From an uncultured Clostridia bacterium (GTDB taxonomy: Bacteria > Bacillota > Clostridia > Christensenellales > Borkfalkiaceae): a stretch of DNA of 37,633 bases. Below, piece after piece: positions 2,561-37,633 of the stretch. The translations under genes were made by a program, and so were the position numbers. Each line of letters starts with the position of its first letter. The stretch's first letter is position 1. The DNA is taken from the NCBI GenBank assembly GCA_947624215.1, contig CANQJJ010000014.1:1-37633 (forward strand), in the 5' to 3' direction. The notes beneath the pieces are model-generated. The model did not search any database. It was not told the origin of the DNA and was given only the letters and a program-made list of their open reading frames with translations.

Positions 2561-2584
2561 TTCGCATCCAAGCCCAATCAAAGC

Positions 2585-2990: not shown

Positions 2991-3196
2991 TATGAGGTTT
3001 GAAACCCTTTCGGCGCACAAGGGCAGTGCGCCACTTTCCCTTCCGGGGGCAGCAAGGGGCACGTCGCTCACCACCGCAATGAACCCCAAACCTCTCCCAA
3101 GCCTTTCCCCGCGCCCGCTTTGGCGTCTTCTCCGCGTCCGCGCTCCCGTGCATGCGAAAAACCTCTGCGGGCTTCGCGGAAAATGTGAAAATTCCC

Positions 3197-3225
3197 TTGA
3201 AAAATGCGGACGAGTTGTGTATAAT
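3197..3225 (+). promoter_or_regulatory. Sigma-A-type promoter of the uvrC operon
   Basis: TTGAAA at 3197-3202 and TATAAT at 3220-3225 are separated by exactly 17 nt, preceded by TGTG. The expected transcription start is around 3231-3233, which coincides with the uvrC ATG at 3232. The transcript would therefore be leaderless or nearly so. Confidence 0.75.
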
Positions 3226-3231
3226 AGGGAT

Positions 3232-5046
3232 ATGGCCGAAGGTGTCGTCCGCGAAAAACTCAAACTGCTTCCCGATTCCCCGGGGGTCTACATCATGTAC
3301 GACGCCGAGGGAACGGTCATCTATGTCGGCAAGGCGCGCGTGCTCAAAAACCGTGTGCGGCAATATTTCCACGCCTCCGAGAAGCCCTTCAAGGTGCAGG
3401 CCATGGTGGAGTGCATCGCCGATTTTTCCTACATCGTCGTCCCCACCGAGCTGGACGCCCTCGCCCTCGAAAATACCCTCATCAAAAAGTACAAGCCCAA
3501 ATACAACATCCTCCTCAAAGACGACAAGACCTATCCCTACATCAAGGTCCACACGCGGGAGGAGTTTCCGCACATCTCGATCACCCGCCGCGTCATGGGT
3601 AAGGACGGGAAATACTTCGGGCCCTTCATGGGCGGCGTCAGCTGCAAAGACATCGTGGACGTGGCTGCCAAGGTCTACAATGTGCGCACCTGCAACGTCT
3701 CCATCGGTACCAAGCCCAAAAAGCCCTGCCTCAACCACCATCTCGGCCGCTGTCTCGCCCCCTGCGCGTGCAACGTGAGCAAGGAGGAGTATGCCGCCCG
3801 CGTCGAGAAAGTGCTCGCCTTTTTGGGGGGTGACTACGAGGAGGCGCAGGCCATCCTCGCCGAGAAGATGCAAAAATTTTCCGAGAACGAGGAGTTTGAA
3901 CTCGCCCTCGAATACCGCGACCGCCTCCGCATGCTCGAGAAGTTGGGCCAGCGCCGCATCACGGCCATGCCCCGCGATGTCGACGCCGACATCTGGGCCT
4001 ATGCCTCCAACGGGCTCTACGCGGCCATCTCGCTCATCGTCACCCGCCGCGGCATCATGCAGGGCTCGCTGAATTTCTCCCTCGACGAGGGGGCAGGGGA
4101 ACGCAGGGAGACCTTCACGAGTTTTCTCACCCAATTTTACGAGACCAAGCCCATCCCGCACGAGCTGGTTTTGGAGGAGCCCTTCGACGGCGAACTCTTC
4201 CTTGCGTACTGCAAAAAGAAGGAGGGACGGGGCGTGGAGATCACCTCTCCGAAATTCGGTATCCGAAGGGAGCTTTTGGACATGGCTACCCGCAATGCGG
4301 CCGAATACCTCGAAAAGTCCATCTCTGCCATCGCCCACAAGAACGACATGACGACCTCTGCATGCGAGCGTTTGAAGACGCTTCTCGCCCTCGGAAAATA
4401 CCCCAAGCGCATGGAGTGTTACGACATCTCCGACATCTCGGGCGTGGACAAGGTGGGGAGCATGGTCGTCTTCACCGACGGCGAGGCGGACAAGTATGAA
4501 TACCGCCGCTTCCGCATCAAGACGGTGGAGGGCGCCAACGATTTCGCCTCCTTGCAGGAAGTTTTGCGGCGCCGTCTGCAAAAGCTCGGCACCGAGGAGG
4601 AGATCAGATTCGCCCGCCCCCAGCTCATCGTCATCGACGGCGGCAAGGGCCAGCTCTCTGCCGTCAAACAGATATTCGATGAATTGAACATCCAAGACAT
4701 CGACCTCGTCGCGCTTGCCAAGCAGGAAGAGGAGGTCTACACTTTGAAGAGCGACGGGCCCATCCGCCTCGACAGGCGCGACTACGCTCTCCGCATGCTT
4801 CAGCGCATCCGTGACGAAGCCCACCGTTTTGCCGTGATGTACTTCCGCAATGTGCACTCCAAGCGCAATCTCTCCTCTGTTTTGGAGGAGATCGAGGGCG
4901 TGGGGGCGGAAAAACGCAAACTGCTCATGGAGAGATTCGGCACTATCGACAGGATCATGAAGGCCGATGAGGCCGAGCTCATGCGGGTGGAGGGCGTCGG
5001 CAAGGAGCTCGCGGGCCGCATCCGCAGATATTTCGAGGCGTTATGA
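3232..5046 (+). CDS. uvrC: Excinuclease ABC subunit UvrC
   Basis: UvrC is the nuclease of the UvrABC nucleotide-excision-repair system and cuts the damaged strand on both sides of a lesion. The 604 residues match the family length. The N-terminal GIY-YIG domain covers about residues 12-95 (DSPGVYIMYD, IYVGKA). A cysteine-rich segment follows (RTCN, PCLNHH, RCLAPC), typical of the family iron-sulphur site. A UVR coiled motif starts near residue 204. The RNase-H-like endonuclease domain has ECYDISD around D398 and DGGKGQ at D469. The C-terminus carries tandem helix-hairpin-helix motifs (IEGVGAEKR, VEGVGKEL). The open frame extends upstream to 2992, but that would add 80 non-family residues and run across the promoter. 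ATG 3232 is therefore preferred, even though no usable Shine-Dalgarno precedes it. It is the first gene of a five-gene overlapping operon. Confidence 0.96.
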   Translation: MAEGVVREKLKLLPDSPGVYIMYDAEGTVIYVGKARVLKNRVRQYFHASEKPFKVQAMVECIADFSYIVVPTELDALALENTLIKKYKPKYNILLKDDKTYPYIKVHTREEFPHISITRRVMGKDGKYFGPFMGGVSCKDIVDVAAKVYNVRTCNVSIGTKPKKPCLNHHLGRCLAPCACNVSKEEYAARVEKVLAFLGGDYEEAQAILAEKMQKFSENEEFELALEYRDRLRMLEKLGQRRITAMPRDVDADIWAYASNGLYAAISLIVTRRGIMQGSLNFSLDEGAGERRETFTSFLTQFYETKPIPHELVLEEPFDGELFLAYCKKKEGRGVEITSPKFGIRRELLDMATRNAAEYLEKSISAIAHKNDMTTSACERLKTLLALGKYPKRMECYDISDISGVDKVGSMVVFTDGEADKYEYRRFRIKTVEGANDFASLQEVLRRRLQKLGTEEEIRFARPQLIVIDGGKGQLSAVKQIFDELNIQDIDLVALAKQEEEVYTLKSDGPIRLDRRDYALRMLQRIRDEAHRFAVMYFRNVHSKRNLSSVLEEIEGVGAEKRKLLMERFGTIDRIMKADEAELMRVEGVGKELAGRIRRYFEAL

Positions 5047-5861
5047 GGTACAGGCTCTTTCTCTCGGATTACGACGGGACCCTCGCCGGGGCCGACGGGA
5101 GGGTCTCCCGGGAAAATATCGACGCGATCGCCGCATACAGGCGCGCGGGCGGGATCTTCGCCGTCTGCACGGGCAGGATGCTGCCATCCATTCTGCCGCG
5201 CCTCAAAGAGATGGGGCTCGATGAGGGGTATGTTGCCGCTCTGCAAGGCGGGCAGATCGCGGATATCGCGACGGGGGAGCTCGTCTCGGACGAAGCCTTC
5301 CCCGAGGCCGATGCCATTGACATCTTACACGCCTTGGAGAAGATGGATCTGCACATCCACATCTACGCGGGGATGCGGTTTTATTCGGGCCGCGACGACG
5401 AATATCTGAGGGCATACGAGAAGTTCGTCGGGGTCCGCGGCACCGTCTGTGAGGGGTCACTTGCGGACATGGTATCCGCCAATCACCTCAGAGTCGTCAA
5501 AATTCTCGTGATGACGGAGCCGTGCGCGAGTGCGGACCTCTGCGCCCTCTTTGCCGCGATGTTTCCTGAAAAATGCTATGTCGCCCGCTCATCGGACGTG
5601 CTCGTGGAGCTCATGCCGCCGCAGCTCACCAAGGCCGCGGCCGTCCGCTTCCTCGCAGCAAGATACAATATCCCGACCTCTGAGATCGCCGCGATCGGGG
5701 ACCGTGAGAACGACGGGCCCATGCTCGGCGCGGTGGGGGGGAAGTTCGCCGTAGCCAATGCGGCGAGCGCGCTCAAAACAGGTGCGACCGTCGTGCCCTC
5801 GTGCGATGAGGACGGCGTCGCCTATGCAATACGCAATTATGCCATGGGGGAAAGTGTATGA
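5043..5861 (+). CDS. Cof-type HAD-superfamily hydrolase (sugar-phosphatase-like)
   Basis: This is a 272-residue cytoplasmic HAD phosphatase of the Cof/IIB class, probably acting on small phosphorylated metabolites. Motif I is DYDGT, with nucleophile D9 and acid/base D11. The conserved lysine is in PPQLTKAAA, and motif IV is GDRENDG with D220 and D224, binding magnesium. The cap domain lies between motif I and the lysine, as in the class. The start overlaps the uvrC stop by 4 nt (ATGA), so translation is probably coupled. The substrate cannot be told from sequence, and the link to repair or to HprK is positional only. Confidence 0.9.
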   Translation: MRYRLFLSDYDGTLAGADGRVSRENIDAIAAYRRAGGIFAVCTGRMLPSILPRLKEMGLDEGYVAALQGGQIADIATGELVSDEAFPEADAIDILHALEKMDLHIHIYAGMRFYSGRDDEYLRAYEKFVGVRGTVCEGSLADMVSANHLRVVKILVMTEPCASADLCALFAAMFPEKCYVARSSDVLVELMPPQLTKAAAVRFLAARYNIPTSEIAAIGDRENDGPMLGAVGGKFAVANAASALKTGATVVPSCDEDGVAYAIRNYAMGESV

Positions 5862-6787
5862 ACGAAGAGATCATCATGCCGCACGAGACTGTGATGCTCG
5901 ACAAGTTTGCCTCCGACCTCGGGTTGGAGCTTCTGTACGCGGGCCGCGGGCTCATCACGCTCACGAGCGTCAGTGTAGACAGGCCGGGGCTGCGGCTTGC
6001 TGGCTTTTTCACGGCGTACGATACCCAGCGCATCATGCTCGTCGGTCTCACCGAACACGAGTACATGCGCTCGTTCACCTCGGAGGAACGCACGGAGATG
6101 ATCGAGAAGCTCTTCTCCTTCGGGGAAGTGCCGTGCGTCATCTTTTCAAGGGATCTGCCCGTGCTCCCCGAGTTCATGGAGTGTGCGCGAAGGTCGGGAA
6201 CGCCCGTCTTCCGCACGGGGCGGCTCACCACGCAGATCATGGCCGACCTCTGCGCCTATCTCTCCCGCTTGCTCGCCCCCAAGACGACGGTGCACGGCGT
6301 GCTCTTGGACGTCTTCGGCGCAGGCATCCTGCTCACGGGCAGTTCGGGCGTGGGAAAGAGTGAGACGGCAATGGAGCTCATCAAGCGCGGGCACCGTCTC
6401 GTCGCCGACGACTCCGTGCTCATCAAGCGGGTGGAGAGCGAGCTTGTCGGCACCGCCCCCGAGCGCATCCGCTATTTCATGGAACTGCGCGGCATCGGCA
6501 TCATCAATGTCAAGAATATGTACGGCTCGGGCTCGGTCATGACGGAGAAGGAAGTCGAACTCGTCATGGAGCTCGAGCATTGGATACAGGGGAAGGAATA
6601 CGACCGCATCGGCGGCGAGGGGGGCACCGAGACGATCCTCGGGATCAGGGTCCCCAAGCTCACCGTGCCCGTGAGCCCGGGCAGAAATCTTGCCATCCTC
6701 ATCGAAGTGGCGGCGCGCAACCACCGTCTCAAACTCATGGGGTATGACGCCGCGCAGGAGCTCATCCAGCGCACCATCGGAAGATGA
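5858..6787 (+). CDS. hprK: HPr kinase/phosphorylase
   Basis: HprK phosphorylates and dephosphorylates Ser46 of HPr, setting carbon catabolite repression in Bacillota. The 309 residues match the family. The N-terminal domain (about 1-130) is followed by the kinase core. That core has a conserved His at H146 (TVHGVLLD), a P-loop GSSGVGKS at residues 161-168, and the HprK signature ELRGIGIINVKNMYG near residue 210. A basic C-terminal helix region (NHRLKLMGYDA) is also typical. The ATG overlaps the preceding stop as ATGA. HprK next to uvrC is a familiar arrangement in clostridia, as I recall. No ptsH or regulator is in the window. Confidence 0.97.
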   Translation: MNEEIIMPHETVMLDKFASDLGLELLYAGRGLITLTSVSVDRPGLRLAGFFTAYDTQRIMLVGLTEHEYMRSFTSEERTEMIEKLFSFGEVPCVIFSRDLPVLPEFMECARRSGTPVFRTGRLTTQIMADLCAYLSRLLAPKTTVHGVLLDVFGAGILLTGSSGVGKSETAMELIKRGHRLVADDSVLIKRVESELVGTAPERIRYFMELRGIGIINVKNMYGSGSVMTEKEVELVMELEHWIQGKEYDRIGGEGGTETILGIRVPKLTVPVSPGRNLAILIEVAARNHRLKLMGYDAAQELIQRTIGR

Positions 6788-8901
6788 CGGAGCTACTCGC
6801 CCCCGCCGGGGGGATGCAGGCGGCCGTCACCGCGCTCACCTCGGGCGCAGACGCCATCTATCTCGGTCTTCGGCAGTTTTCCGCGCGCAGCAGTGCGGAA
6901 AATTTCGATGAAGGGGCCTTTGCGGACATCCTCCGTTTGGCCCATCTTTTGCATGCCAAGGTCTACGTCGCCCTGAACACGCTCGTCAAGGACGCCGAGC
7001 TCGCAGATTTCTTTGCCGCGGCGCGCGCGGTCTGGAATGCGGGGGCCGACGCCATCCTCATTCAGGATCTCTTCCTCGGGAAGGAGCTCCGCCGCCGCTA
7101 TCCTGAGATGGTCTTGCACCTCTCCACGCAGGCGGGCTGTTGCAACGTGTATGGCGCAGAACTCGCAAAGCAGTTCGGATTTTCCCGCGTCGTCCTCGCC
7201 CGCGAGACCCCGCTTTCGGACATGGCTGCCATCTCGAAGGTCATCGAGACGGAAGTCTTCGTGCAGGGCGCGCTCTGTACGGCCTTCTCGGGGCAGTGCT
7301 ACCTCTCCTCCTTCGCGGGGGGCAACAGCGGCAACCGCGGCAGATGCAAACAGCCGTGCAGGAAGAAATACCGCCTCGACCGCGCGGGGTTTGAAGAACA
7401 GGCCTATGCGCTCTCCACCTCCGATCTGATGCTCGGGGCAAGGCTCAAAGAGTTGCAAGAGGCGGGCGTGTGCTCCCTCAAGATCGAGGGCAGGATGCGC
7501 CGCGAGGAGTATGTGGGGGCGGCGGTCAAATACTACCGCGCTCTCTTGGACGGCACGCCCTCGGCTGCGGCGCTCACCATGCTCAGGCGGGCCTACAACC
7601 GCGGCGACTACACCGAGGGGCTCGCATTCGGGGAGAAAAATTTCCTCTCGCGCGACGTGCAGGGGCACATCGGAGAGTACATCGGACGGGTCACTTTCAG
7701 ACATGGTATGCCCGTCTGCGGTACAAACTATCATGCCGTGCGCGGCGACGGGTTCAAGATCCTCCGCGGCGGGAAGGAGGCCGGCGGCGCTCTCTTCAAA
7801 GAGGAGACTTCGGGCGGCTTCGTTCTCACGGGGGGAGCATTCCGGGAGGGCGACGAGGTCCGTCTCACCACCTCCGTCGTGAGCAATGCGGCCGCGCTCG
7901 AGCCTGTCAAAAAGAGGCCGCTCGATGTGGAGCTCTGCTTCCGTGCGGGTAAGCCCCCGCGTGCCACGGCCGAGGGGTATACCTATGTTGGGAAAGAGCC
8001 GCTTGCGCCCGCCGAGCATGCCCCCGTCGGGGAGGCCGAGCTCCTTTCCTGTTTCCAAAAGACGGACGGTCTGCCTTTCGAGGTGACCGTGCATGCCGAC
8101 GCGGGGGACGCTTTCCTGCAAAAATCGGCGCTCAATGCCTTCCGCAGAGAGTTCTACGCGGGCCTGTGCGCACATCTCTGCCCGCCGCGCGAGCCCTTGG
8201 AGGAAGTCTCCCCGCCGCTCCCTGTCATGCAAACGGAGGGGGGCATGTCCGAGGCAGTGATGGGGGAGAGCCCGCCGAAGAGCGCGGACATCTTCATCTA
8301 CAAGCCCTCCGATTACAGGCGTCTCGAGCGCCCGCCCTTCCCCGTGGTCTACCTCTACCTCCCGCCCTTCTTCACACAGGCCGACGAGGAGACGGTGGGC
8401 GGGCAGCTGAAAAACTTCGACGGCATCTACGCCGACGGCTACTACGGGATCCCGCTCGCCGCAAAATACGGTTTGCCGCTGTTTGCGGGCACGGGCTTCA
8501 ACCTCACCAACAAGATCGCCGTGAGCGGGGTGCGTGAATACGCGCGCTTTTTCGCCCTCTCCAAGGAGATCTCCACGGCCGAGCAGAACGCCCTTGCCGT
8601 CCGCGGCGCCTTCGCACTCTCGGGCGGCGGCGTCAAGGTGATGGACCTCATTCACTGCCCCTTCGGCCGCACCTGCTCTTCGTGCGATCGGAAAAATTTC
8701 TACCGCATGACCGACGAAGAAGGACGTGTTTTCCCGCTCCGCAGATACCGTGTCTCGGACATGGTATGCCGCTTTGAGGTCTACAACTGTGCAAGTTTGG
8801 AGGGGCGCGCAGGCCTGAGTTCCCGCCTTACAGACAATACCGAGCTCTTGGTGCGCGGGCCTTTTTCCACGCGCGGACACTCGGACAGGAGTATGTTATG
8901 A
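6784..8901 (+). CDS. U32 family peptidase / RlhA-like RNA hydroxylation protein
   Basis: This is a 705-residue U32-family protein. The N-terminus is a TIM-barrel-like domain beginning LLAPAGGMQAAVTA and GADAIYLG. The U32 signature EVFVQGALC...SGQC starts at residue 157 and supplies C165 and C172. NRGRCKQPC adds C188 and C192, the four-cysteine set thought to hold an iron-sulphur cluster. A second Cys cluster, CPFGRTCSSC, lies near 625-634. Long U32 proteins of this layout include E. coli RlhA, needed for 23S rRNA C2501 hydroxylation. Others were described as collagenase-like, so peptidase activity should not be assumed. The start overlaps the hprK stop as ATGA. Exact substrate and subgroup need a tree. 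Confidence 0.88.
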   Translation: MTELLAPAGGMQAAVTALTSGADAIYLGLRQFSARSSAENFDEGAFADILRLAHLLHAKVYVALNTLVKDAELADFFAAARAVWNAGADAILIQDLFLGKELRRRYPEMVLHLSTQAGCCNVYGAELAKQFGFSRVVLARETPLSDMAAISKVIETEVFVQGALCTAFSGQCYLSSFAGGNSGNRGRCKQPCRKKYRLDRAGFEEQAYALSTSDLMLGARLKELQEAGVCSLKIEGRMRREEYVGAAVKYYRALLDGTPSAAALTMLRRAYNRGDYTEGLAFGEKNFLSRDVQGHIGEYIGRVTFRHGMPVCGTNYHAVRGDGFKILRGGKEAGGALFKEETSGGFVLTGGAFREGDEVRLTTSVVSNAAALEPVKKRPLDVELCFRAGKPPRATAEGYTYVGKEPLAPAEHAPVGEAELLSCFQKTDGLPFEVTVHADAGDAFLQKSALNAFRREFYAGLCAHLCPPREPLEEVSPPLPVMQTEGGMSEAVMGESPPKSADIFIYKPSDYRRLERPPFPVVYLYLPPFFTQADEETVGGQLKNFDGIYADGYYGIPLAAKYGLPLFAGTGFNLTNKIAVSGVREYARFFALSKEISTAEQNALAVRGAFALSGGGVKVMDLIHCPFGRTCSSCDRKNFYRMTDEEGRVFPLRRYRVSDMVCRFEVYNCASLEGRAGLSSRLTDNTELLVRGPFSTRGHSDRSML

Positions 8902-11246
8902 TGAGAAGTGCCAAGCTCTTGGAGCTCGACAAAATTTTACAGGCCGCGGCCGCCTATGCCGTGCTCGACGAGAGCAAGGCCGCCCTTGCCGCCACGGAGC
9001 CTTTGGCGGACATCGGAGAGGCCGAGCATCTGCTTTCGATGACGGAGGAGGCGAGCCGCCTGCTCTTCACCATGGGTTGTCCGCGCGTGGAGTACTTCCC
9101 GCCCCTTGGCGACGCGCTCGAACGTGCCCAAAAGGGGGCCATCCTCTCCTGCAAAGAGCTCTTAGACCTCTCCGCCATGCTCCGTTCGGTGCGGGTGCTC
9201 TCGGACGGGGTCGCCTCGCTCGCAGACGAAAACATCGTGCTCTTCAAGGAGCTCGCCGTGCGCCTCACCTACGACAGGCGCCTCGAACAGGAGATCGGCG
9301 ACAAGATCGTCAGCGAGGACGCCATCGCCGACACGGCCAGCGACCGCCTCTTTTCCATCCGCAGGGAGAAGCGGCTTTTGGGAGAGCGCATCCGCGCGCG
9401 TCTCTCGGAGTATCTCACGGGCGACGAAAAGAAATACTTGCAGGAGGGCATCGTCACGGTGCGGGAAGACCGCTTCGTCATTCCCGTCAAGGCGGAATAC
9501 AAGCGGAGCATCCGCGGCTTCGTGCACGACAGGTCCCAGAGCGGCGCCACCGTCTTCATCGAACCCGAGGAAGTGCTTGAGATGAACAACGAGCTCCGTT
9601 CGCTCGCCATCGACGAAAAGGAGGAGGAAGAGCGCATCTTGAAGGATCTCTCCCTCCGTCTCGGCCGCAGGCGCAGTGAATTCGAGCTCTCCGTCTCGCT
9701 CGTCTCGGAGGCGGATACCTTCTTCGCGCGCGCGGAATATGCATACAGCCTCAAAGCCGTGCGGCCCCGCCTGAACGGGAAGGGCGTCCTCGATATCCGC
9801 ATGGGGCGGCACCCTCTCCTTGAAAAAACCACGGCCGTGCCCGTCTCCGTGAAAGTGGGGGAGGATTGCGCTTTTCTGCTCCTCAGCGGCGCCAACACGG
9901 GCGGCAAGACGGTCACGCTCAAGATGTGCGGCCTCTTCTCGCTGATGGCGGCGTGCGGGCTGTTCGTTCCCGCGGCCGAGGGCACGCGCCTTCCCGTCAC
10001 CCATGTCTTCTGCGACGTGGGCGACAGTCAATCCATTGAAGAAAACCTCTCCACGTTCTCCTCCCACATCGTGCGCATCAAGCACATTTTGGAGGAGGCG
10101 GGGGAATACGACTTTGTGCTCATCGACGAGCCGGGCGAAGGCACCGATCCCGAGGAGGGGCAGGCCCTTGCGCGGGCCGTGCTCTCGGCACTTCTCCGCC
10201 GCGGCTGCCGCGGCATCGTCACCACCCACTATGCCGCCCTCAAAGAATTTGCCTATGCCACCCCGGGGCTGGAAAACGGGAGCATGGAGTTCGACGCGGA
10301 GGATTTCCGTCCGCTCTACCGCCTCCGCATGGGGGCGCCCGGCTCCTCCAACGCGCTCGCCATCTCCACCCGCCTCGGGCTGCCCAAGGAGACGATCGAG
10401 GAGGCGCGGGGATACCTCTCGGAGGGGGCCCGTCTCTTCGAACAGACGCTCCGTGCCGCAGAGGAGAGCAGGATAAAGGCAGACGAGGTGCGGCATGAGG
10501 CCGAGGAGCTTCGCCGCACATGGCAGGAGCGCACGGAACAGCTCGCCCGCGACGAGGAGAAGTTCGCCCGTGAGCGGGAAAAATTCCTCGCTTCCGCCAA
10601 GGCCGAGGCCCGCAAGATCGTCTCCGCCCGCACGGCCGAAGCAGAGGAGATCCTCGCCGAGATCGAAGAGATCTTCCAAAAAGAGAGCATCGACGAGAGC
10701 GACCTCATCCACGCCCGCACCTTGAAGAACACGTTAAAGAGGGGTACCATGTCCGAGGAGGAGCCTTCTGTACGCGATGAACCCGTCGATTTCGCCACTC
10801 TCAAAGAGGGGGACCGCGTGCGCGTGGGGAGCATGAATGCCGAGGGGGTCGTCCTCTCCGTCTCCCGCACCAAGGGGACTGCGGAGGTGCGCGTGGGGAG
10901 CATCCGCGCCAAGGTAAAGATTTCCGACCTCTACCGTGCCGCCCCCGTCGGGCAAGGGGAGGCCAAGGTCACGGTGACGCGCAACGTCACGGCCCGTGCA
11001 GACGTCAAGCCCGAGATCAACCTCATCGGCATGACGACCTCGGAAATGGAGCCCGAGCTGGAAAAATTCTTGGATTCCGCCGTGCTCGCAAATCTCTCCG
11101 AGGTGCGCATCGTGCACGGGATGGGAACGGGCAAACTGCGCGCCGCCGTGCACGCCCTCCTCAAAAAACACAGGCGGGTGGAGAGTTTCCGCCTCGGCAA
11201 ATACGGCGAAGGGGAGAGCGGCGTGACCATCGCCTACCTCAAATAA
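8898..11246 (+). CDS. mutS2: Endonuclease MutS2
   Basis: MutS2 is a MutS homologue that lacks the mismatch-recognition domain. It limits recombination and, in Bacillus, acts on collided ribosomes. The 782 residues match the family. The lever/clamp region (about 1-300) precedes an ATPase domain with Walker A GANTGGKT at 331-338 and Walker B LIDEP with D410 and E411. A long charged coiled coil spans about 510-620. The C-terminal Smr nuclease domain (about 705-782) carries HGMGTGKLR with H740. AGGAG at 8887-8891 lies 6 nt before the ATG, and the start overlaps the U32 stop as ATGA. It is the last gene of the operon. I see no clear terminator after it. Confidence 0.97.
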   Translation: MMRSAKLLELDKILQAAAAYAVLDESKAALAATEPLADIGEAEHLLSMTEEASRLLFTMGCPRVEYFPPLGDALERAQKGAILSCKELLDLSAMLRSVRVLSDGVASLADENIVLFKELAVRLTYDRRLEQEIGDKIVSEDAIADTASDRLFSIRREKRLLGERIRARLSEYLTGDEKKYLQEGIVTVREDRFVIPVKAEYKRSIRGFVHDRSQSGATVFIEPEEVLEMNNELRSLAIDEKEEEERILKDLSLRLGRRRSEFELSVSLVSEADTFFARAEYAYSLKAVRPRLNGKGVLDIRMGRHPLLEKTTAVPVSVKVGEDCAFLLLSGANTGGKTVTLKMCGLFSLMAACGLFVPAAEGTRLPVTHVFCDVGDSQSIEENLSTFSSHIVRIKHILEEAGEYDFVLIDEPGEGTDPEEGQALARAVLSALLRRGCRGIVTTHYAALKEFAYATPGLENGSMEFDAEDFRPLYRLRMGAPGSSNALAISTRLGLPKETIEEARGYLSEGARLFEQTLRAAEESRIKADEVRHEAEELRRTWQERTEQLARDEEKFAREREKFLASAKAEARKIVSARTAEAEEILAEIEEIFQKESIDESDLIHARTLKNTLKRGTMSEEEPSVRDEPVDFATLKEGDRVRVGSMNAEGVVLSVSRTKGTAEVRVGSIRAKVKISDLYRAAPVGQGEAKVTVTRNVTARADVKPEINLIGMTTSEMEPELEKFLDSAVLANLSEVRIVHGMGTGKLRAAVHALLKKHRRVESFRLGKYGEGESGVTIAYLK

Positions 11247-32500: not shown

Positions 32501-35500
32501 TTCTCATCAAGGTGAACGGCAACGCGAACGGCGGCACAGACTATGTCGGCCCCACCTACACCGACAGCTTGACCTTGGCCCAACTCACCGCGCCCGACTA
32601 CACGTTTATCGACGGCGTCAATGCGGGCAGCACGCTCGGCAAAGACAACGCGATCGGCATCATCACCGCTTCGCTCATGGCGACCTTCACCTATTCGGGC
32701 AAGTCGTTCGGCGGCATCGAATTCGACGGCACCGATGTGCAAGCGGGCAAATATACCATCACGGCGGCCACCGGCGGCACGTGTGCGAGCTGCTTTATAA
32801 TTTCCAATGCAGCGGGTTGCGCGGTGGGAGGCAACACCCCTCACTACATCGTGCCCCGCGCCGCGGTCTACGGCAACGACGTTCGAGTAAAATCCTTCGA
32901 TTACAATGCAAAGCTGCACACTGCGGAAGAGGCCGTAAGCGGCAACGATGGCTATAATGTACTTTGGAGCGTAGAGGAGGCCTCGGGTACCAATGCGGGT
33001 ACCTATTCCTTCAACGTGACCCTCAAAGATCAAAACCACCACTGGGCGCGTTTCCAAGGCGAAAACATTGCTGATGAACGCACCGATTCCGTGCCGCTGT
33101 TCTTCACCATCAACCAGGTGACGGCTTCGGTCGAGTTCACGAGCATCACCTTCTTGGTGACGCCGCAGGGTGCGCAAGAGGCCGAAGAAAAGGTATTGAC
33201 TGCTTCGGGCGGTGTCACGTGGATCTATCGTGACGAGGCTACTCGTACGAATTTCGTCTATAAGGTCACTGCGAATAGGAACGTGCTTACGATCGATGCG
33301 GAGAAAGTGAGCGTTTTGTATTCGGTAGGCGGCGATTGGACCACGGAGCTTCCCACCAACGCGGGCACCTATCGGGTGAAGTTGAGCCTTGCCCAAACGG
33401 AGAACTTCTCGAATACCGCCGAATCGAAAGAGTTTACGTTTACCATTGAAAAGCGCACGGTGGCAAAGATCGAGGCGCCCGCCAGCCAAAACTACACAGG
33501 CGCGATGCTGGAGACGCAGCTTGAAGGCGTCGATCTCAACATCATGAACGTTGAGAAGATAACAGATGCGCTCATGATCAACTATGTTTCCGGCGAGAGC
33601 GGGTACAGGACCATGCTTCGTGCCATCAACGTCGGAACGTATAAAATCAAAGTTACCCTTATCGATACTTCCAACTACAAGTGGGAAGACGAAGTGGACG
33701 GCAAACAGGATATCACCGTCACATGGGAGATTTGGAACGTCGCGGGCAATGTCACGCTCGGAGAGGTCGAAGACGTCTTCTACGGCTTCCATTTCTCAGT
33801 GAGCGCAACTTCTACGTTTGCGACAGAGACCGAGGCATTCAAGTTCTGGTATGCCGCATATAACGGCGAGACGAGCGGCGAAGATGTAAGCGTATGGACG
33901 CCTTGGAACACAAACGGTCCCAAGAATGCGGGCATGTATTGGATCCGCGCCGAGCTTGTAAGAACGAGCAACTACGAGGCGGCGTACGATTACCAACAGG
34001 CCGAGATCAAGAAGGCGGCTCTGACCGTGACGGTCTCCATCTCTGAGAGCGGCATAGAATATCGCTACGGCGGCGCCCTGCCCACAAGCTATGGCGTACA
34101 TGCTGATGGCTTGCAGTACGGTGAGCGTTGGGACAGCCTCAATGTTACACCGAAGTATAAAACGGTCGACGCCAGTAAGCAAGACATGCTGGGCAAGAAG
34201 TTTGTCGTCGGCACGTACTATCTGACGGTCGAAGCATTCGAGCTCGACAACTACGAAGTCATGGTGGTGGACGCCGCGTTCGAGGTCCTGCCCAAGCAGA
34301 TACAGGTGAATATCCTGCCGCAGACGGCGACCTATCAGGGCGGCAAACTGCCCGAAATCAACAAAGACCAATGGGCGCTTGTGGATGAAAATGCGCTCGT
34401 GGAAGACGACCAATTGACAAACGAGAATATCACCCTCTCGGTCGAAGAAGTCGCGAAGTACAATGCGGCCGCCTACTCCATCAACGGCACGCAGAAGGGC
34501 GCAGAGAACTACGCCATCGAGTTCTTGTCGGGCACGTTGACCATCAACCCCGCCGAGATCAACATCGAGAACATCACGGCCTACAACGTAGTTTACGGCG
34601 ACGATGTCAACGTGACGTTCAAGGTGAGAGACAGAGCGGATGAGCAGAGGAGCGGCTACAAGTTTACCAAAGGCGTAAAAATCTACGTTGCCTATTTCAA
34701 GGACAATGAAGATCTGCAAGGCGGGGCGCCCAAGGATGCGGGCACCTACAATGTCAAGCTCGCGCTCGGGCAGGAAGCCCCCGGCAACGACGACAGTACC
34801 AACTATGTTCTCACGGGAAGCATCGACGCGACGCTCGTCATCGAGAAGAAACAGATCGACCACAACGAGATCGTAAAGAAGGTCAACGGAACGACCTACA
34901 CCTACACGGGCACGTTGCAGGGTCCCGTTGCAAGCACGGTCGCGGGCTATTCCGAAGAGCTGTTCGGCAAGGCTGATCTCTACACCGTGAATGGCCTCAC
35001 AAAGGAAACGAACGCCGGCACCTACGAATATCGCTTGAAGATCGCAGACGGGATGTTCGTCAACTATCGCTGGACGGAGACCGACAACCAAGAGATCGTA
35101 GCGAGCTGGGCGATTTTGCAGGCGACGAACTCCGTCAATTGGACTGCGGAGCAGCAGGATCCCTACACCGCGGTGTACGGCGAGAGCTATGAGATCACGG
35201 CAACGGCCACGTTCGGCACGGTAGGGTATGCCTATGCGGCGAAGAAGGAAGGCGACTACGAGACGAGCGATTGGGTGCTCGGATTCCCCGCAAATGCAGG
35301 GGCCTACGTCATCCGCGCCTACGTGGAGGGCACCAACAATTATACGGGCGCAGATACGCAGCACGAACTGACCATCACCCCCGCGGAGCTTTTCGTTCAG
35401 ATCGGCAGCCCCACAGTGACCTACGGCGACGAGCTCGGCACGATCCTTCTCACCGTTTCGGGCTTTAAGACGCCTTACTTCGGCACAGTTGCGGGCACGC

Positions 35501-37633
35501 GTGACGACGAAGCAAGCTCGGGTTGGACGGTCCACGAGCCCACCTTCCGCACCTTCCTCAGCCATGGCTATGAGCCCGGCAGCCCCGTTTCGGGGACCTA
35601 TCTCATCACCTATACATACAACGGCGATGTAGACCTCGGCAACTATGTCATCAAGGCTGTGAACGTTACGGGCGGCAATATCCAAGTGCAGCAGCGCGAC
35701 CTCAAGATCGTGATCGAGGACCAGCAGAAGGTGTACGACGCGGTATATGCCGAGGAGGCTCCCGAACTCGATAGCAAGAAATGGCACACTTCCAACGACT
35801 CCTCCGTATTCGGCGACGACAGGGCAACCTTGGGCATCACCCTTGTGTTGCAAGAGAGCGCCCCGTATAAAGTGGGTGAGCCTTACACCATCGACATTCA
35901 GATCACGGAAAATAACACCAACGCGAACTACACAATCACCGTTGAGACCTATGGCACCCTCACCATCACCCCGCTGGACATCGAAGTGGAACCCGAGAGA
36001 GAGGAACCCGGGGCACCCGGGACGCAGGGCGAGATCAAGGGCGGACTTGCGATCACGCCCAACATCGCCGAGGGCAACGAAGGCCACGACACGGGGATCG
36101 ACGGCAAGCCTCAGCTCGGCGGCGTGACCATCACCTACGGCGACGACTACGAGGCAGAGATCTACATCGGCGGCACGCCGTATAGAGAGGGCCAAGAGTT
36201 CTCCGCGGGCGTGTATATCCACTTCATCTACACCGCGATCGCGGCGACTGTCTCCGAGCCCGCGGGCTCCGAGTCTGCCGGCATCAGCCTGTTCTCTGCG
36301 CGGAATGGCGAATACAAGCATCCCACCGACGCGGGCGCTTACACCGTGAAGCTCGTGTTGACGACGGCACCTGTGGGCGCCGACGGCAACTATACCGTGG
36401 CAGAAAACTACACGCTGAAAGGGGATTTCGAAACCACCGTCATCATCAGCAAGAAGCAGATCGGGAGCGCCGCCGTTGTAGAGAAGGTCAATGAAACGAC
36501 CTACACCTACACGGGTGAGGCGCAGGGCCCCGAAGCAAGCGCGATCGCGGGCTATTCCGCAGAGCTGTTCAAAGTAGCAGGTCTTTACACCGTGAATGGC
36601 CTTACAAAGGAAACGAACGCCGGCACCTACGAATATCGCTTGAAGATCGCAGACGGGATGTTCGTCAATTATCGCTGGACGGAGACCGACAACCAAGAGA
36701 TCACGGTAAGCTGGGAGATCAAGCAGGCGCCGAACGAGCTCAGTTGGACCTCGAGCCCCGAAACGGCGGAATACGGCGACATCTATGAGATCAAGGCAAC
36801 GGCCGATTTCGGCACGGTAGGGTATGCCTATGCGGCGAAGAAGGAAGGCGACTACGAGACGAGCGATTGGGTGCTCGGATTCCCCGCAAATGCAGGGGCC
36901 TACGTCATCCGCGCCTACGTGGAGGGCACCAACAATTATACGGGCGCAGATACGCAGCACGAACTGACCATCACCCGCGCAACGCTCAACGTTCAAATCG
37001 ACGACAAGAGCATTACCTACGGCGATGAGGCCGGCGTATTCACCCTCACCGTTACGGGCTACAAGACGCCGTTCGGCGGTTCGTCCGCGGATGACGCGGC
37101 AAGCTCGGGCTGGGCGCTGGAAATCGAGGAATTCCTCAAGTATATCAAGGTATCCAACGGCAGCGGCGATTACGCAGCGGGCAGCAACATTGGCGACTAC
37201 ACCGTCACCTACACGGGCGGCAATATCGAACTTGCCAATTATATCATCAATGCAAAAGACAACGTCGCAGCGGGCAAGCTCAAGGTAGAACAGCGCGCCA
37301 TCACCGTTGTGATCGAGGACCAGTCTTTGCCTTATATCAAGGACTATGCGACCTCGGATCCCAACCCCGACGATACAAAGTGGCATGTCGACGGCGAGTC
37401 CGTGCTCCTCGATAAGGATAAGGAGTACATGGGGATCGGCGTGTATCTCGCCGATAAGGGTGTTGCACCTTACTTCGCCGACGGCACGCAGTATGATATC
37501 AACGGGGAATACACGGCAAACGAATACAACAAGAACTACAAGATCACGTTCGTTTCCGGATACCTCACCCTCACGAAGCAGGATATCAACATCGAAGCAG
37601 GGTCCATCAAGATCTATAACAATAATTCCGATT
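14521..37633 (+). CDS. Giant exported MBG/Ig-like repeat protein, 3' end beyond window
   Basis: One frame stays open from ATG 14521 to the window edge, at least 7,704 residues (very roughly 0.8 MDa). Residues 1-42 form a Sec signal peptide: SKRYSKK, a hydrophobic core at about 9-30, and a likely cut after VSA. Residues about 43-935 resemble nothing I recognise. A Gly/Pro-rich linker (about 934-964) precedes tandem beta-rich modules to the end. Many begin near [IL]TV and contain YG[DE], like MBG YGX-type domains (for example at 22702, 26677, 28408, 30904, 35422, 37018). Others carry a Y-[TN]-G start, NAGTY and NY.W, ending in W.I.K. Cysteine is rare. No catalytic motif, transmembrane segment or wall anchor is visible; the anchor may lie beyond the window. 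Likely a surface or adhesion fibre. Composition is less GC-rich than the operon upstream. Confidence 0.93.
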   Translation, partial: MSKRYSKKLLAIVLCAVLMLVVAVMGALSLVKPDSSSVAVSAEEDTIAEYIDSDITKFNNWVDTSPSFDTENYGETAGNVYQRTTLWDIKTRIVARANVTFTDESGESLSDDSRVLKPHEFNIEVSVNDKMFSDRTDGASCMPFADVSVGSSYQVTLFFAKEIESLRVDNNPTTSVQLVQDPAYQKGTMKGEPPEDPVYPSTGLRTYNIYSFDYRSSITAVPYGKSGAERVEVPRELLTLQFANGSGPFVFGDSSDNQVTATLTYDTSPKEEGAQSDSCTISGATGSTATPKAVRIKINQTPNNSKENTDKDPLKGTVYNSAADGKSGHWLRAIGVDVPQKAGDNNGTQYKYNPSTAEHQYYNFFAPSENASDYEYLLRFGILVHVYDNNGVMTEMLGTDPRISIDPSTKVPTTTNDVDLFPIALKYAPEGLGNGITSNEIKIRFYHDSGLWNDVSFTQQVKGLDEWKAATDEKDEKISGNIEFQNPIYPTDFVTYGEGGVLPLLQAKGKLNFTHYMRSGRELNPKLGELNLSGNGAPVTVKQSYRDSKYSSYDEYKDGYFIKWIYCNYNGATTYFPVRVSYEEITGLNMTGAIGTQTLNSAFNFNGTNASPSFQFTYKHHLSQEDVASSFSSTAVRIYGSSGNALSTTENGNVAPTTNFYHPLFNATVGNQQGIGRYGLYYYTKEEFKNVLDAGSGTNAKEAETAYPYSSTFKTIDLKKLESAGKNIYSYFSGSMDAAEKPYDRLRSNIAYVRLVYVIEEIKTTDGDVIQPAIAFYRDYWVGTSFILTSSSQNLPSFGSGNTVTFGDLVNSTDPKEGVYDQGAELQLTNFDPANLYADGVISAKYSLQFYRYVDSKWTLIAQTSVTQEMGSEGADPTYKWEVKMENGVTGVKLDIVTHNKKYYLQLTGDSVIGNYRMYASLDSDGSFEWSTRGGGTPAPSPNEEDWGDGNQGKNRTDVGLPEDSSLYRYIEFEVRGLTLSLEYEMPNTLGYGETFTFTLKLYLGDGDQRKLYRIYTSNSAYSEDDKDKVWTLDYKGGAIAEGHKFRLSFDAGAQKYYFDTGAPTDPGYYTVQIDIWPDGNYSSISVSTHLRIQARQLMLQWNQKKIEDTPLTYNGQKFNPYDYLQIVFYDNKDLEFDKTNTSEGDYDWQIVYADSASGGTAGERVTTFTHALTYRIRVQLNGKYANIYAWHSDNLTSDHGGICSGIDNLEATINFTIAKYEGNEIGADFTTREGDGWTMEGVLPTRPYYSKGEIKGKPTSDPFFGGYKVAVISQETYDAYFEQYKQSYAETGIPNGGFYQFLGEKNASRTDEDNAYSLGASEDNYYAIVYSTYMDTGDNDSDFQDYNFCEFITPFKIVKRKIAAPTLKEYEVTYNGTEQTAELQGFNAVKLPEETMATYSTLTKSTIHGLQSPITTKDTSVSATNADVYKIYVRLTNYTNNVWDEETNNDKVTFENVNGEKYAVITWTINRMRIDPTNTETYPFFDPEERTYSGSSSEIEAHFQKSGNSLSYSQTGTLTPYVTLVTAVSQYIATDAGKYTLYIKATDNYYISETDDSALAAPGETQENYPIEWKILKKTLNKPTTQESKVYTGNQVTFEFPNFNEIPAIVKLDGVSYSGAVFKTAGALTNEHYFTHYEIDTKTLHAVVTYAGTYTVTFTLSDKANYCWKGDSAEPDDGENYAGTCEVKFTLERKKLEIDWGQVAFTYDGNGHAPVPTVKNAGGSDALKLLPKVYKDNTGEALESDPTEAYDKYWSVLQYTDSIRDCIESRQITGIYAEGEEKFVYIADNYMFAGSGSGGEVKRVEIQFKITSQSVAVPELKAILDPGATIGSYNGTDNTIIVTYKGENYLFNDFISNWEEIADLIKITSPDYKTDDNVVTNKAPAFMSVKWVTVGSSLGYYEINYYIADPDNYSWQGNVKGSEEAFTFYLQIKPYELAAPAVNGIDNVYETDYNGAEQNFTDALTNWAYYGEKIGDDSDTRVKIYNENEATMSATDVKRGTGEGDNALVEAYEITVELASDNFVWKNAASGDGNSTDRENKTFYFRINPIALQVEWKGEGDSGYGTAPTTTYNGEAQGLEVQLAGAHPSDDVKFAYELSTTDSTDSATIQDKTKAVNAGYYTATVTSISGDKARNYYIASYKRAKAGDKAEAGNVATQPAPNAKYTIYKLGLDKPTSENKGDSYVYNKELQTFTLQKWNASLMEISAFAGKDYTAAQGPIEDVSSQTVDDTLQLTAKHAGKYSFTISLKDDTIKGNYCWATDNYNTDRLPDATTGIDSLVEEYQDYWEIKQRTITAPTLAKGAADKEDYNFRAQPRKENSALYPNFDIGEIPDITGNSGTYTKKVDGDLPWEMTFTVKYYNAEDEPITNSLDEDSKEVGYYYLILTLTVPATEWSQDYAWASSTEAYELTQKNAYLTDHPDVLISDGDVVTIKLWYRILRGSYSANFALHITKQAVSEDNSGAAEKWIYGDLGNQGGGYSVYFTRAWTSAGQPNLWDEGIEMRERSVSYALVREGYYDPTRHTTLTPSELVKNQTMSAGGLQNVSGPNTSEDAAKFIPEYLPYKAGRYVALIKYTPNGPNDARNPTETATLDEKTFEVYFTIEQREIEFTWGNKTPTYSGKSQLPTTSITNSVTTNGIYPGTGSVSDSLNLTVQWVEDGVPQADGPVNVNRAKTVDQVGNYTIRATKINGTSADNYKLPDLDKAQIDDFAIQPIQITLKAQNAEREYGDYLSGTSNYGDTNMGRSFFNYDEAIGKILEKNLQEDLENAFYVFGCTEVTYNAGALVNQRSDVNGTYYTVIMMNNPDTYAGRYSNYMFTYEAGKFTIKPKQIDKVEWVEGSYTYDGKDHLAGNVTSFVYFVSNIDNAHLAPQLRLEVDGVEVTNFKYAGEYTFTVLSAGTENPNFVLVGNAMNATHTFTMQKRTVYVTANDITTDYGSEPTAAQLKWSYTSGHGASAHFVDNSGSEITGWQESIDDYTVSGGANTFTLPVTTTAKQFSDVGGTYTTNITLAEPYNNYIIEIVAGKHTVQQKVIEVKWDENLTFYYNGTDRTKNGTEAWLAYYESLTEKEGDAPKKIYLRVRAYEGSNINDFVPFQYVKAGETAYKFYAYSFNDTATESKNYRLPLSSDGDLYGKLFNEVQLKARDVYLEASDLSYVYGDEVPTWNGSNHGWTYGAQSANAENQFLTEGEENNFWIAVTSLTQTTGKRKLDNEFKLIFSGSAADFNGLDYFITSGKTSLDTKNGQGGYDYHVHFKSAAITVNARPIVVTYERQEHEYGAERQDPANHVTVALADNYSTLGGTGSAALVNGHGNSKVFKIEALNGDVNIVTSEIYPDVGTYKVVLTLLDDNYSVTFKMTYYNGGSDHRTADDVNEKCTAAEGYIITASKILSNGFSITAYTGTYNAAAHNALGSISGKYYDNKGVLQSYNAWDGTAKDEANNYFAVYFRITADWNADKTQTDWNASWTDVTLTYKGGNLESTDGYIWQKALPQFKHAGTYRVYYAVVADNHEFVFGEDNYIEVVINQKEVQVYANFEGYYSETFAGYQPQYKFEGFEGDENENSALNISKVSAIEWHIDSYSAGSLAGDYPLLLTFGSFTATDYTFKAKDYSAGAEGVAGANHVKVKPLPITVTVNDGNAKNTYYYNAAMGKESRYDLNRLGEKYAYTIKVNEGIKNILGESITDIFANDYKDGHEGVSFFTLSSDAIPDENMTLGVGFHDIKFAYAANGEQRYAVTLVSERGKEVKHDNGTCIKDGFEITPAVIKEEAVHAYGSTNVVGTGGKTYDEEFHNALHLGSTSDTFNGENGNKDLTAFATAADKEKINWTFVVFFNKDAESNYANDAFFDKDYSSDTSVIKTTGNNPQIIDAGTYIVYYRLQLDNHTTVYRMLTGKIAKAENKWVSEYQLNGRNIDGNAWIYGAKADNNSDGYDSRDITEQIPVAKFNRKYGVIGNEGSSATKAMNEVPVVTLKKGSQVIGEFTIDFYASSIPGWLSQNSTIPGKGSYKNGALLGAGTYTVTFSMPETENYEAIKEQTVKFTIGKKELTVKTNDMEIFYGEDAPTPTVSITGYVNGEGNSVLETESRTYKILDKLDLGSGKEYIKGYERGSVGDYYITVQWTSENASDNYILDLHSDGKLKVKPRALTVTISNHTNKYNFNISKAKETVQWFDLDTSNWSQMVTVDNTNRADGTHYTGFYSDEISKVIRLTTGALIWNSGIGYKYADINQNKTADAGYYAITGELNLTTDYSKNYVITFKGDWGESVETQAEHGSDPKKGECGIFHIAPADVTIFVIWPTDGRVGETKEFVYTGHEKVFDAGPVQGAEGLSANIVYYQWDSSDYTIALEQAPVNVGKYKVGFTLGGAGASNYTAATAEAEFEIKPKQITVNYQTMWYGEGGGKELIPATDIVYYMREYVVVGTFGTQEADVQNGNNNDKMVVFADTGKIRIFITYNNDPDTKMIAAGTYTVTAKVQYNVGGDDWQDCGNYTINQRNSQQITVSQKVVNSPSQTAPGGNSLTYDGEEKTFTVDNFMGETDTFIKQAVMSVKFEYSKSGLFADDVQVLTVEGSDGKITVNSIIKWMVRDAGAYRITVTLNSPENYDFLGNISRDSLTFTFTVNKKDLYVQVKDANIEYGDSFDDAFKKTLELLFSDSPVDDDNFTATGGFVSSDIEDGKVKEGVLNKSSMSIEPTSYNESNNAGHTTSIKLSGITAENYNVTCENYGVLTVVPRKITVQIHDPDQASVYIGGEFTVANLDDDFRPTLTLVDGSTLNTRVDHDVNEIGVTYEVKGDTVGTHALVPTNNNGNYDITFTGDWKGEDEYAGKAGTFTVVRAPLTVTVVITNGAGDQELDITFGDTPVFDVAYEGWKGEDIKTMPELLQPFEFRNEQQNYSAQPTYVRGSSIAGSKYTVSISNQSDANIFFENYTVKFADAVTMTVVSRVITPTVSNDHREFEANDDRSNKDLPAIIAYENQYGDIAPNATVTYKGEYNDKDPEKQFAGKDSFVSTIPQRAGEFQVKLVLPQNTLGGYNYKFEGGATETTCNYTIEKQKILLEWKYPLIQDGTAENSIEKFDQRIMEFSYAFETAVQEYVPSNHGVTVTISGAGTGVGTVTLTNEYDYALIANEGDKGSETLVLTFRVILDDVGFTVTITGWKYSQFDEAENLPKFNTTQTIANPAVTYLYIALKESDIVTWEAYSEQLADTNLDKTVRQNIINALNQLLRERGSTTVIENKNAGSYLVYATLSEQVDYASAVTACYFVIEKLDLAVPTLTAEGGHEECYYNGSAHKMDITDFNSATMEYIADSGLTISTEQRGGSGVVTVLSATEAGDYKIQWVLRDTTNYVWQGDDQNPVTTYTIHKNTVQVSKNNDNSITYGETFTPTTTVSFVNLNETAAFTDFAITFGYQKADEGISEVAPKAAGTYTIYAKVEDGGANFTGITDWTRIGTLTIGKANLAIYTESAEVVYGEKAPAFTYKTDSGLFYGDTLETLLAGLGITSEATGYTVGADVNEDGYSITINLNGATLDNYEVTKNEDEQNAARLKVVARELTLTIQTLKRYFNDFQAPEFKTAVVYSSAEGSDYFTVTDGSIYGTDKLQIKLTLAPASDGKYSVGSYALSGVVDTDYEGGAQANYAVTVNNGAIEIERLTITFEHTEVKSAVGDGSKIVYNHGNEVPLHILLEYTAADQERTQTVENAELKIGKEGYEKYFRVTYSGSDNQNNVYGNTAEVSVAPVNAGTYRASILLVAEYEGQVELTGISSARSDVYNIERFDLDIAQVQENIKKNPAYTHTYDGVKYKPAQETVQSDVKQALGDLYAKGNATAQASLAGAFTVGKYGEGLNVGSYNIPVAFTPKGAANYSWVRGANPVYSETAELTFEIVKQWNTEITVEKTETAEHIFDGMFNADKLKMKSNVRAFKDYKLNPDIGEITVYVATGDTQPEKGATGEWTELTYEQAIAINSAAAMAGKHFIYIKLGETANYAAAETEILEYEIKPRNVLIKVNGNANGGTDYVGPTYTDSLTLAQLTAPDYTFIDGVNAGSTLGKDNAIGIITASLMATFTYSGKSFGGIEFDGTDVQAGKYTITAATGGTCASCFIISNAAGCAVGGNTPHYIVPRAAVYGNDVRVKSFDYNAKLHTAEEAVSGNDGYNVLWSVEEASGTNAGTYSFNVTLKDQNHHWARFQGENIADERTDSVPLFFTINQVTASVEFTSITFLVTPQGAQEAEEKVLTASGGVTWIYRDEATRTNFVYKVTANRNVLTIDAEKVSVLYSVGGDWTTELPTNAGTYRVKLSLAQTENFSNTAESKEFTFTIEKRTVAKIEAPASQNYTGAMLETQLEGVDLNIMNVEKITDALMINYVSGESGYRTMLRAINVGTYKIKVTLIDTSNYKWEDEVDGKQDITVTWEIWNVAGNVTLGEVEDVFYGFHFSVSATSTFATETEAFKFWYAAYNGETSGEDVSVWTPWNTNGPKNAGMYWIRAELVRTSNYEAAYDYQQAEIKKAALTVTVSISESGIEYRYGGALPTSYGVHADGLQYGERWDSLNVTPKYKTVDASKQDMLGKKFVVGTYYLTVEAFELDNYEVMVVDAAFEVLPKQIQVNILPQTATYQGGKLPEINKDQWALVDENALVEDDQLTNENITLSVEEVAKYNAAAYSINGTQKGAENYAIEFLSGTLTINPAEINIENITAYNVVYGDDVNVTFKVRDRADEQRSGYKFTKGVKIYVAYFKDNEDLQGGAPKDAGTYNVKLALGQEAPGNDDSTNYVLTGSIDATLVIEKKQIDHNEIVKKVNGTTYTYTGTLQGPVASTVAGYSEELFGKADLYTVNGLTKETNAGTYEYRLKIADGMFVNYRWTETDNQEIVASWAILQATNSVNWTAEQQDPYTAVYGESYEITATATFGTVGYAYAAKKEGDYETSDWVLGFPANAGAYVIRAYVEGTNNYTGADTQHELTITPAELFVQIGSPTVTYGDELGTILLTVSGFKTPYFGTVAGTRDDEASSGWTVHEPTFRTFLSHGYEPGSPVSGTYLITYTYNGDVDLGNYVIKAVNVTGGNIQVQQRDLKIVIEDQQKVYDAVYAEEAPELDSKKWHTSNDSSVFGDDRATLGITLVLQESAPYKVGEPYTIDIQITENNTNANYTITVETYGTLTITPLDIEVEPEREEPGAPGTQGEIKGGLAITPNIAEGNEGHDTGIDGKPQLGGVTITYGDDYEAEIYIGGTPYREGQEFSAGVYIHFIYTAIAATVSEPAGSESAGISLFSARNGEYKHPTDAGAYTVKLVLTTAPVGADGNYTVAENYTLKGDFETTVIISKKQIGSAAVVEKVNETTYTYTGEAQGPEASAIAGYSAELFKVAGLYTVNGLTKETNAGTYEYRLKIADGMFVNYRWTETDNQEITVSWEIKQAPNELSWTSSPETAEYGDIYEIKATADFGTVGYAYAAKKEGDYETSDWVLGFPANAGAYVIRAYVEGTNNYTGADTQHELTITRATLNVQIDDKSITYGDEAGVFTLTVTGYKTPFGGSSADDAASSGWALEIEEFLKYIKVSNGSGDYAAGSNIGDYTVTYTGGNIELANYIINAKDNVAAGKLKVEQRAITVVIEDQSLPYIKDYATSDPNPDDTKWHVDGESVLLDKDKEYMGIGVYLADKGVAPYFADGTQYDINGEYTANEYNKNYKITFVSGYLTLTKQDINIEAGSIKIYNNNSD
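17440..30300 (+). repeat. MBG/Ig-like module array, divergent part
   Basis: This is the first part of the repeat array inside the giant gene. Modules of about 80-130 residues share NAG-x-Y type strands (for example HAGKYSFTISL at 21238, DVGTYKVVLTL near 24523, GAGTYTVTFSM near 26548) and YGX starts at 22702, 23986 and 26677. Modules are well diverged, and I found no long near-identical DNA tract among them by eye. Confidence 0.75.
30301..31815 (+). repeat. Five-module super-repeat, unit 1
   Basis: About 505 residues. The order of modules is: a YNG/NY.W module (30301), a YGE module (30631), a second YGE module with GLFYGDTLE (30904), an [LI]T[LV]xIQ module (31150) and a module ending in NAGTYRASILL. 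The same order recurs downstream, with sequence identity low but module boundaries clear. Confidence 0.6.
31816..33456 (+). repeat. Five-module super-repeat, unit 2 (irregular)
   Basis: About 547 residues. Modules start near 31816 (YTHTYDG...NYSW), 32146, 32491 (NVLIKVNG), 32866 (FDYNAK...HHW) and 33118. The fourth module resembles a first-position module, so the order differs from the other units. An unusual Cys cluster (CASCF, AAGC) sits near 32782-32820. Confidence 0.5.
33457..34851 (+). repeat. Five-module super-repeat, unit 3
   Basis: About 465 residues. Modules are NYTG...NYKW with ITVTWEI (33457), a FYGFHFSVSAT module (33775), LTVTVS with YGG (34018), QIQVNI (34297) and INIENI with VVYGDD (34558). 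The module order is the same as in the next two units. Confidence 0.7.
34978..35097 (+). repeat. 120-nt near-identical tract, copy 1 (copy 2 at 36583-36702)
   Basis: The two 120-nt tracts lie 1,605 nt apart and differ at only three positions by my reading. All three are synonymous C/T changes, so the encoded 40 residues are identical. Confidence 0.9.
35212..35380 (+). repeat. 169-nt identical tract, copy 1 (copy 2 at 36808-36976)
   Basis: The two tracts lie 1,596 nt apart and read identical at every position, including synonymous sites. They span most of the FGTVGYAYA module up to the HELTIT boundary strand. Sequence on either side diverges at once. Confidence 0.92.
36457..37633 (+). repeat. 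Five-module super-repeat, unit 5, cut by the window edge
   Basis: Copies unit 4 module by module: YTYTG...NYRWT (36457), EYGDIYEI with FGTVGYAYA (36772), VQI with TYGDE (37018), RAITVVIEDQ (37297), then the start of DINIEAGSI at the right edge. More array probably continues beyond the window. Confidence 0.8.

Follow-up and report, generated by a model that had tools for sequence, protein, structure and literature searches.

Probable recent exchange between two giant paralogous genes and their terminal repeats in an uncultured Clostridia bacterium

Why are stretches of DNA identical, or nearly so at silent sites, within repeats whose neighbouring sequences have diverged even at the protein level? 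The question is raised by the 3' end of a giant gene, here denoted gene A, of an uncultured Clostridia bacterium (family Borkfalkiaceae). The stretch analysed (the window, 37,633 nucleotides) is the whole of contig CANQJJ010000014.1 of assembly GCA_947624215.1, a short-read metagenome bin of 1.98 Mb in 87 contigs, 94.6% complete. Gene A (14521-37633) has 7704 codons in the window and is open at the contig end; it encodes a signal-like N-terminus and many modules of about 80 amino acids (aa) similar to MBG domains. Coordinates without a contig label are those of the window, forward strand. The last part of gene A contains two super-repeats, A1 (35101-36441) and A2 (36442-37633), and two tracts occur in two copies each: tract 1 (34978-35097 and 36583-36702) and tract 2 (35212-35380 and 36808-36976). 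A first-pass annotation had ascribed them to recent conversion or strand slippage between adjacent super-repeats, rather than to selection on protein. Comparison with a second giant gene of the same genome, gene B, and with related genomes quite probably gives a wider answer: the 3' part of gene B was copied into gene A, and smaller conversions between super-repeats and genes followed.

Two giant genes and their lineages

Labels used below are C14 for the window contig, C32 for the contig carrying gene B, and G081, G118, G109 and G069 for genomes of the same genus. Gene B has 7739 codons, is likewise open at the contig end, and is colinear with gene A; in BLASTP comparisons the two match in two segments, covering gene A aa 7-458 and 573-7704. 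At E<=1e-50, giant genes of this type were found in 5 of 103 genus genomes: two in the window genome, and one each in G109, G069, G081 and G118. G109 and G069 carry the B lineage, G081 and G118 the A lineage.

The G109 gene matches gene B end to end (69.9% aa identity; 78.6% at the DNA level over C32 562-23830), and synteny extends upstream. With mutS2 DNA 81% identical between G109 and the window, these matches make C32 look vertically inherited. The 5' ends of C14 and C32 dovetail with different contigs (C5 and C31), and the two contigs therefore represent two loci. A segment of the G081 gene (G081:C11 aa 7196-7556) is 43% identical to one of the G109 gene (G109:C12 aa 7783-8152), within a long alignment of these A- and B-lineage genes at 28.9%; an older exchange across the lineages is possible there. 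An 885-aa block was searched against general genome contigs and viral contigs, and zero relatives were found in these.

A B-derived block at the 3' end of gene A

Genes A and B are only distantly similar for most of their length. Identity is 21-39% in the 27 windows of 250 aa that reach to aa 6750; in the following windows it is 68, 87, 82 and 92%. The G081 gene behaves in the opposite way, being 32-53% identical to gene A in the first 27 windows, and 25% identical or hardly alignable after them. The A-lineage part of gene A, with orthologues in G081:C11 and G118:C2, thus spans 14521-34740; over it, the G109 gene is 20-41% identical to gene A. In a fine scan with 60-aa windows, the switch of lineage falls within about 34741-34831. 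Beyond about 34831, and as far as the contig extends, likeness to G081 and G118 is lost, and gene A becomes 68-92% identical to gene B. At the DNA level, gene A has no match to the B orthologue of G109 before 34871, and is 76% identical to it over 35104-37620. At the point where gene A takes on the donor lineage, it hence loses the resemblance to its own orthologues, as ectopic exchange between paralogues would produce.

Because the block is also present in the B orthologue of G109, while the fit to G081 collapses there, the transfer evidently ran from a B gene into gene A. In the 3' flank of the block, synonymous divergence (dS) is 0.14 between A1 and B1, and 0.07 between A2 and B2, where copies 1 and 2 of the super-repeats are named after the gene that hosts them; the corresponding B-G109 values are 0.48 and 0.67. 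These A-B values being far lower, the transfer postdates the split of the two species. The donated sequence measures at least 2.8 kb, and gene B also carries tract 2, so that exchange took place, as the first-pass annotation held, but was not limited to adjacent super-repeats.

The block is not a plain copy of the order found in gene B. After the A-lineage part follow copy 2 of B type (to about 35100), copy 1 and again copy 2, where gene B itself has copy 1 and copy 2. The segment 34831-35100, which opens the block, sits at the copy-1 position, yet matches best gene B aa 7341-7457, and is mostly 0.88-0.90 alike to B2 vs 0.48-0.67 to B1. A1 proper is B1-like; A2 is B2-like (84-100% outside the tracts) and holds a copy-1 insert. 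The 2-1-2 order suggests one register shift, which probably accompanied the block transfer. It is also the best argument for slippage, or unequal crossing over, as the sole process, with an array unit duplicated and its copies diverging patchily afterwards. Such a process could neither import the sequence of another gene nor replace an inner patch, and the flanks of tract 2 keep copy-2 identity (A2-B2 93-100%) around an interior of copy 1. Slippage alone is for these reasons very improbable; of the two mechanisms first proposed conversion stands, given that the patch lies in the same register, with flanks and positions kept, and slippage may have had a part in the single register shift that the order suggests.

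Tract 2, a copy-1 patch in super-repeat A2

The two copies of tract 2 are 169 nt long, do not differ at any position, and the identity does not continue for even a single base beyond either end. Both borders are thus as abrupt as had been described. The copy at 35212-35380 occupies the copy-1 position and recurs exactly at C32 21431-21599; that at 36808-36976, at the copy-2 position, is the recipient. The codon alignment of A1 and A2 has 1164 sites at 70.0% identity; when the sites were shuffled, the longest identical run averaged 17.5 nt, with a maximum of 48, and none of 5000 shuffles reached 169 nt. With synonymous codons alone, the longest identical run was 64 vs a shuffled maximum of 54 (0/20000). 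Chance is excluded by these figures, and the absence of differences announced by the first-pass annotation is exact.

Copies that elsewhere diverge are in tract 2 alike at silent sites too. Synonymous codon differences between A1 and A2 number 0/55 in tract 2 and 3/38 in tract 1, vs 37/88 in the 3' flank. Selection keeping the protein stretches alike, an idea to which the Y/G/P core conserved among the modules lends some appeal, does not account for these silent sites, nor for the quite different sequence that B2 has in the same module; the chance that it explains the tracts is negligible, in agreement with the first reading of the locus.

A2 behaves as a mosaic. The flanks of tract 2 are its own, B2-like at 93-100%, and the interior is identical to A1 and B1. 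The fit of A2 as a mosaic of B2 and A1 was not equalled in any of 20000 shuffles, either with all 406 informative sites or with the 60 synonymous ones. Within the tract, dS is 0 for the A1-A2, A1-B1 and A2-B1 pairs, and 1.4 for A2-B2. Tract 2 has a dS of 0.35 to copy 1 of G109 and of 0.55 to its copy 2; being nearer to copy 1 of the outgroup, tract 2 is of copy-1 origin, with copy 1 as source and A2 as recipient. As A1 and B1 are the same here, the donor may be either, the other gene included. The possibility that relatives conserve the tracts unchanged, mentioned by the first-pass annotation as a point that would speak against conversion, does not hold, the copies of G109 differing by 11-28% in tract 2. 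Identity at silent sites, the sharp borders, the mosaic tests and the outgroup sequences together give good support to recent gene conversion.

Tract 1 and further patches

Tract 1 is 120 nt long, in frame, and its two copies differ at three positions, all third codon positions, as had been reported; dS between A1 and A2 is 0.13, with zero amino-acid changes. By sequence type, tract 1 is copy-2 sequence at the copy-1 position of gene A, and an exchange common to A1 and A2 is clear. B2 is nearer to copy 2 of G109 at the 3' end of the tract. The left border is not abrupt, A1 and A2 being about 82% identical upstream to 34870; the description of sharp edges therefore applies to tract 2, and not to this side of tract 1.

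A further patch of A1, at 35635-35767, resembles copy 1 of G109 more closely than it does the resident gene B, with an exact run of 65 bp (0/20000 shuffles). Gene B and the G109 gene have in common, within C32 6598-7290, an exact run of 201 bp and windows at 96-100% identity, in a gene-wide background of 79.9%. Third positions are identical there at 202/226 sites, and at 5668/7646 over the gene. The 201-bp run was found in none of 2000 site shufflings; when blocks were shuffled, with a 300-site window, the tract was not significant (403/2000). The A1 patch and the 201-bp run suggest possible exchange between species. The GC content of third codon positions, considered as a sign of biased conversion, rises towards the 3' end in genes A and B, but equally in G109 and G081, and nothing is claimed from it.

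Assembly of the two contigs

Conclusions drawn from a short-read bin may reflect the work of the assembler. Seven end overlaps were found in the 61 of 174 contig ends compared, six of them dovetails and one the common end of C14 and C32; every one measures exactly 77 bases. Such overlaps are typical of an assembly graph built with k=77. The terminal 77-mer of the window (37557-37633) matches the end of C32 exactly. C14 and C32 stop at the same fork, and the sequence beyond it is common to both and was not separated by the assembly. Genome-wide searches for the tails, made with the C-termini of the G109 and G081 proteins, gave only module-level matches in C14 and C32, or none, so that neither gene has its 3' end in the bin. 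Short-read bins break or mix giant genes, and true sizes and ends are under-recorded as a consequence.

The block could accordingly be a chimera made in silico, two B-like strains having been mixed and wrongly joined to gene A. The common 77-mer, the uniform 77-base overlaps and exact repeats of up to 321 bp within both contigs are what such an artefact would leave. Exact C14/C32 repeats inside the block measure 321 bp (35176-35496, C32 21395-21715), 296 bp (36196-36491, C32 22406-22701) and 169 bp; all exceed the 77-base overlap, and the assembler must presumably have crossed them using pairing information. The junction near 34831, on the other side, lies like the two borders of tract 2 in 77-mers that are unique within C14 and C32, and these junctions should therefore derive from reads; the two contigs, moreover, start at different loci. 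An artefact is on balance improbable, if less so than slippage alone. The collapse or copying of tracts feared by the first-pass annotation is unlikely for the junctions; phase keeps some doubt.

Proposed course of events

The following course would fit the data. The giant genes A and B of this genome, old and colinear, would encode surface proteins built of repeats. Through homologous (ectopic) recombination, plausibly of RecA type, gene A would have received at least 2.8 kb from the 3' part of B. Smaller conversions would have followed, with patches passing from one super-repeat to the other and from one gene to the other: a 169-bp copy-1 patch would have entered A2 as tract 2, and a copy-2-type patch would have become common to A1 and A2 as tract 1. 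The chimerism of gene A and the mosaic patches are evident in the alignments; the two borders of each patch would lie on one molecule, and the transfer would be non-reciprocal. The comparison made for non-reciprocal transfer, among species-level genomes, found copy 1 of A and of B identical in tract 2.

Some observations weigh against this scheme. Reciprocal exchange may also have occurred, and the transfer of tract 1 between A1 and A2 has no readable direction. The assembler may have swapped the right-hand parts of A and B across the 169-, 296- and 321-bp repeats, longer than the 77-base overlap. B2, finally, is in tract 2 only 0.53-0.70 alike to every other copy; it is therefore a poor reference for the unconverted state, and some of the likeness in tract 2 may be old. 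The two copies of G109 are 0.72-0.89 alike in the tract 2 module, vs mostly 0.5-0.65 elsewhere. This likeness and the oddity of B2 may stem from conversion of older date at this site, or from replacement of B2. B2 was also tried as a mosaic of A2 and B1, and the trial was discarded, as it gave 4 sites of descent, reached in 277 of 20000 shuffles, and nothing at silent sites.

A broader view may be tentatively proposed, in which the 3' super-repeats form a recurrent exchange zone, where individual modules pass between paralogues and between species of a single gut genus. It draws on the likeness of the G109 copies in the tract 2 module, the G109-like patch of A1 and the 201-bp tract of gene B and G109. 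On this view, the tract 2 module would be a cassette of variable sequence that conversion keeps in circulation.

Modules, protein and neighbouring sequences

An iterated hidden Markov model (HMM) recognizes 30 module copies in gene A. The single module holding tract 2 (aa 7414-7492; 36760-36996), delimited by the module HMM, is a predicted Ig/PKD-like beta sandwich. Its model, built from a 27-row alignment, is confident (predicted local distance difference test score, pLDDT, 87), and tract 2 would cover the last three strands, starting in the loop that precedes strand 4 and finishing with strand 6. The best PDB match of the model is a PKD domain (Z 7.3), at the generic level of Ig/PKD folds; no match below 0.001 was found by Foldseek. 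Modelling of A2 in its entirety gave no usable structure (pLDDT 31). Complete relatives have a hydrophobic stretch near the C-terminus and, after it, a tail that is charged and mostly basic, and a surface anchor on these giant proteins is therefore likely.

Among 17 giant-gene loci of the genus, exact internal repeats longer than 49 bp were found only in the window gene. The next ones measure 49, 39, 33 and 31 bp, and the other 12 are shorter than 30 bp, in a sample of surviving assembled contigs that is biased against long exact internal repeats. Such repeats accordingly do not characterize the family as a whole.

An open frame of 1196 aa lies opposite the giant gene (33796-37386, minus strand), together with many other long antisense frames; it is probably an effect of codon bias. 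The mutS2 gene (8898-11246; MutS V and Smr domains) precedes the giant gene by 3 kb. Its relatives, up to 85% identical in amino acids, come from uncultured Clostridia bins. The label 'Lapin' is borne by 22 of 26, with NODE_ contig names, which we read as rabbit-gut samples and SPAdes assemblies. Parts of genes A or B were found beside mutS2 at none of the 26 named loci. The interval 2914-3038, ahead of an open reading frame at 2992, has several matches of 28-60 bases, at 80-100% identity, on the contig of G109, and is perhaps a dispersed repeat. Rfam matches were not found in the window.

Comparison with known systems

The exchange between the giant paralogues and their repeats is real, recent and directed. 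The process is known in kind, and unusually legible here. The case offers a directed example, younger than a species split, in which the end of a giant surface-protein gene seems to have been overwritten by a paralogue of the same genome and finer patches can still be read, and illustrates how giant surface proteins swap domains. A literature search at the level of titles and abstract openings found no publication describing the A/B pair.

The modules liken the protein to MBG-domain repeat proteins. MBG_2 (PF18676) exceeds the Pfam cutoff of 25 in three of eight window pieces (41.2, 27.9 and 30.5 bits). The piece holding the second copies of the tracts (35101-37632) differs in this respect, remaining below it at 21.6 bits.

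In Porphyromonas gingivalis, identical repeats occur within and between hagA, rgpA and kgp (PMC5266723). As far as the consulted parts of that report go, the likeness is close: large surface-protein genes of one genome feature identical repeats, their modular order varies by gene, and draft contigs break inside them. The present genes differ in their unrelated domains and phylum, in being two giant genes colinear end to end, and in a direction of transfer that can be read from orthologues.

The Giant1-5 genes of Apilactobacillus kunkeei are similar in other respects (PMC12863079). They encode surface proteins of 3000-8000 aa, several per genome, and exhibit intragenic recombination tracts and horizontal exchange between species. 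Recombination is abundant in them, but the sections of that work available to us do not point to recent conversion among the giant genes within a genome. Genes A and B, of a different protein architecture, provide by contrast a clear case of recent conversion.
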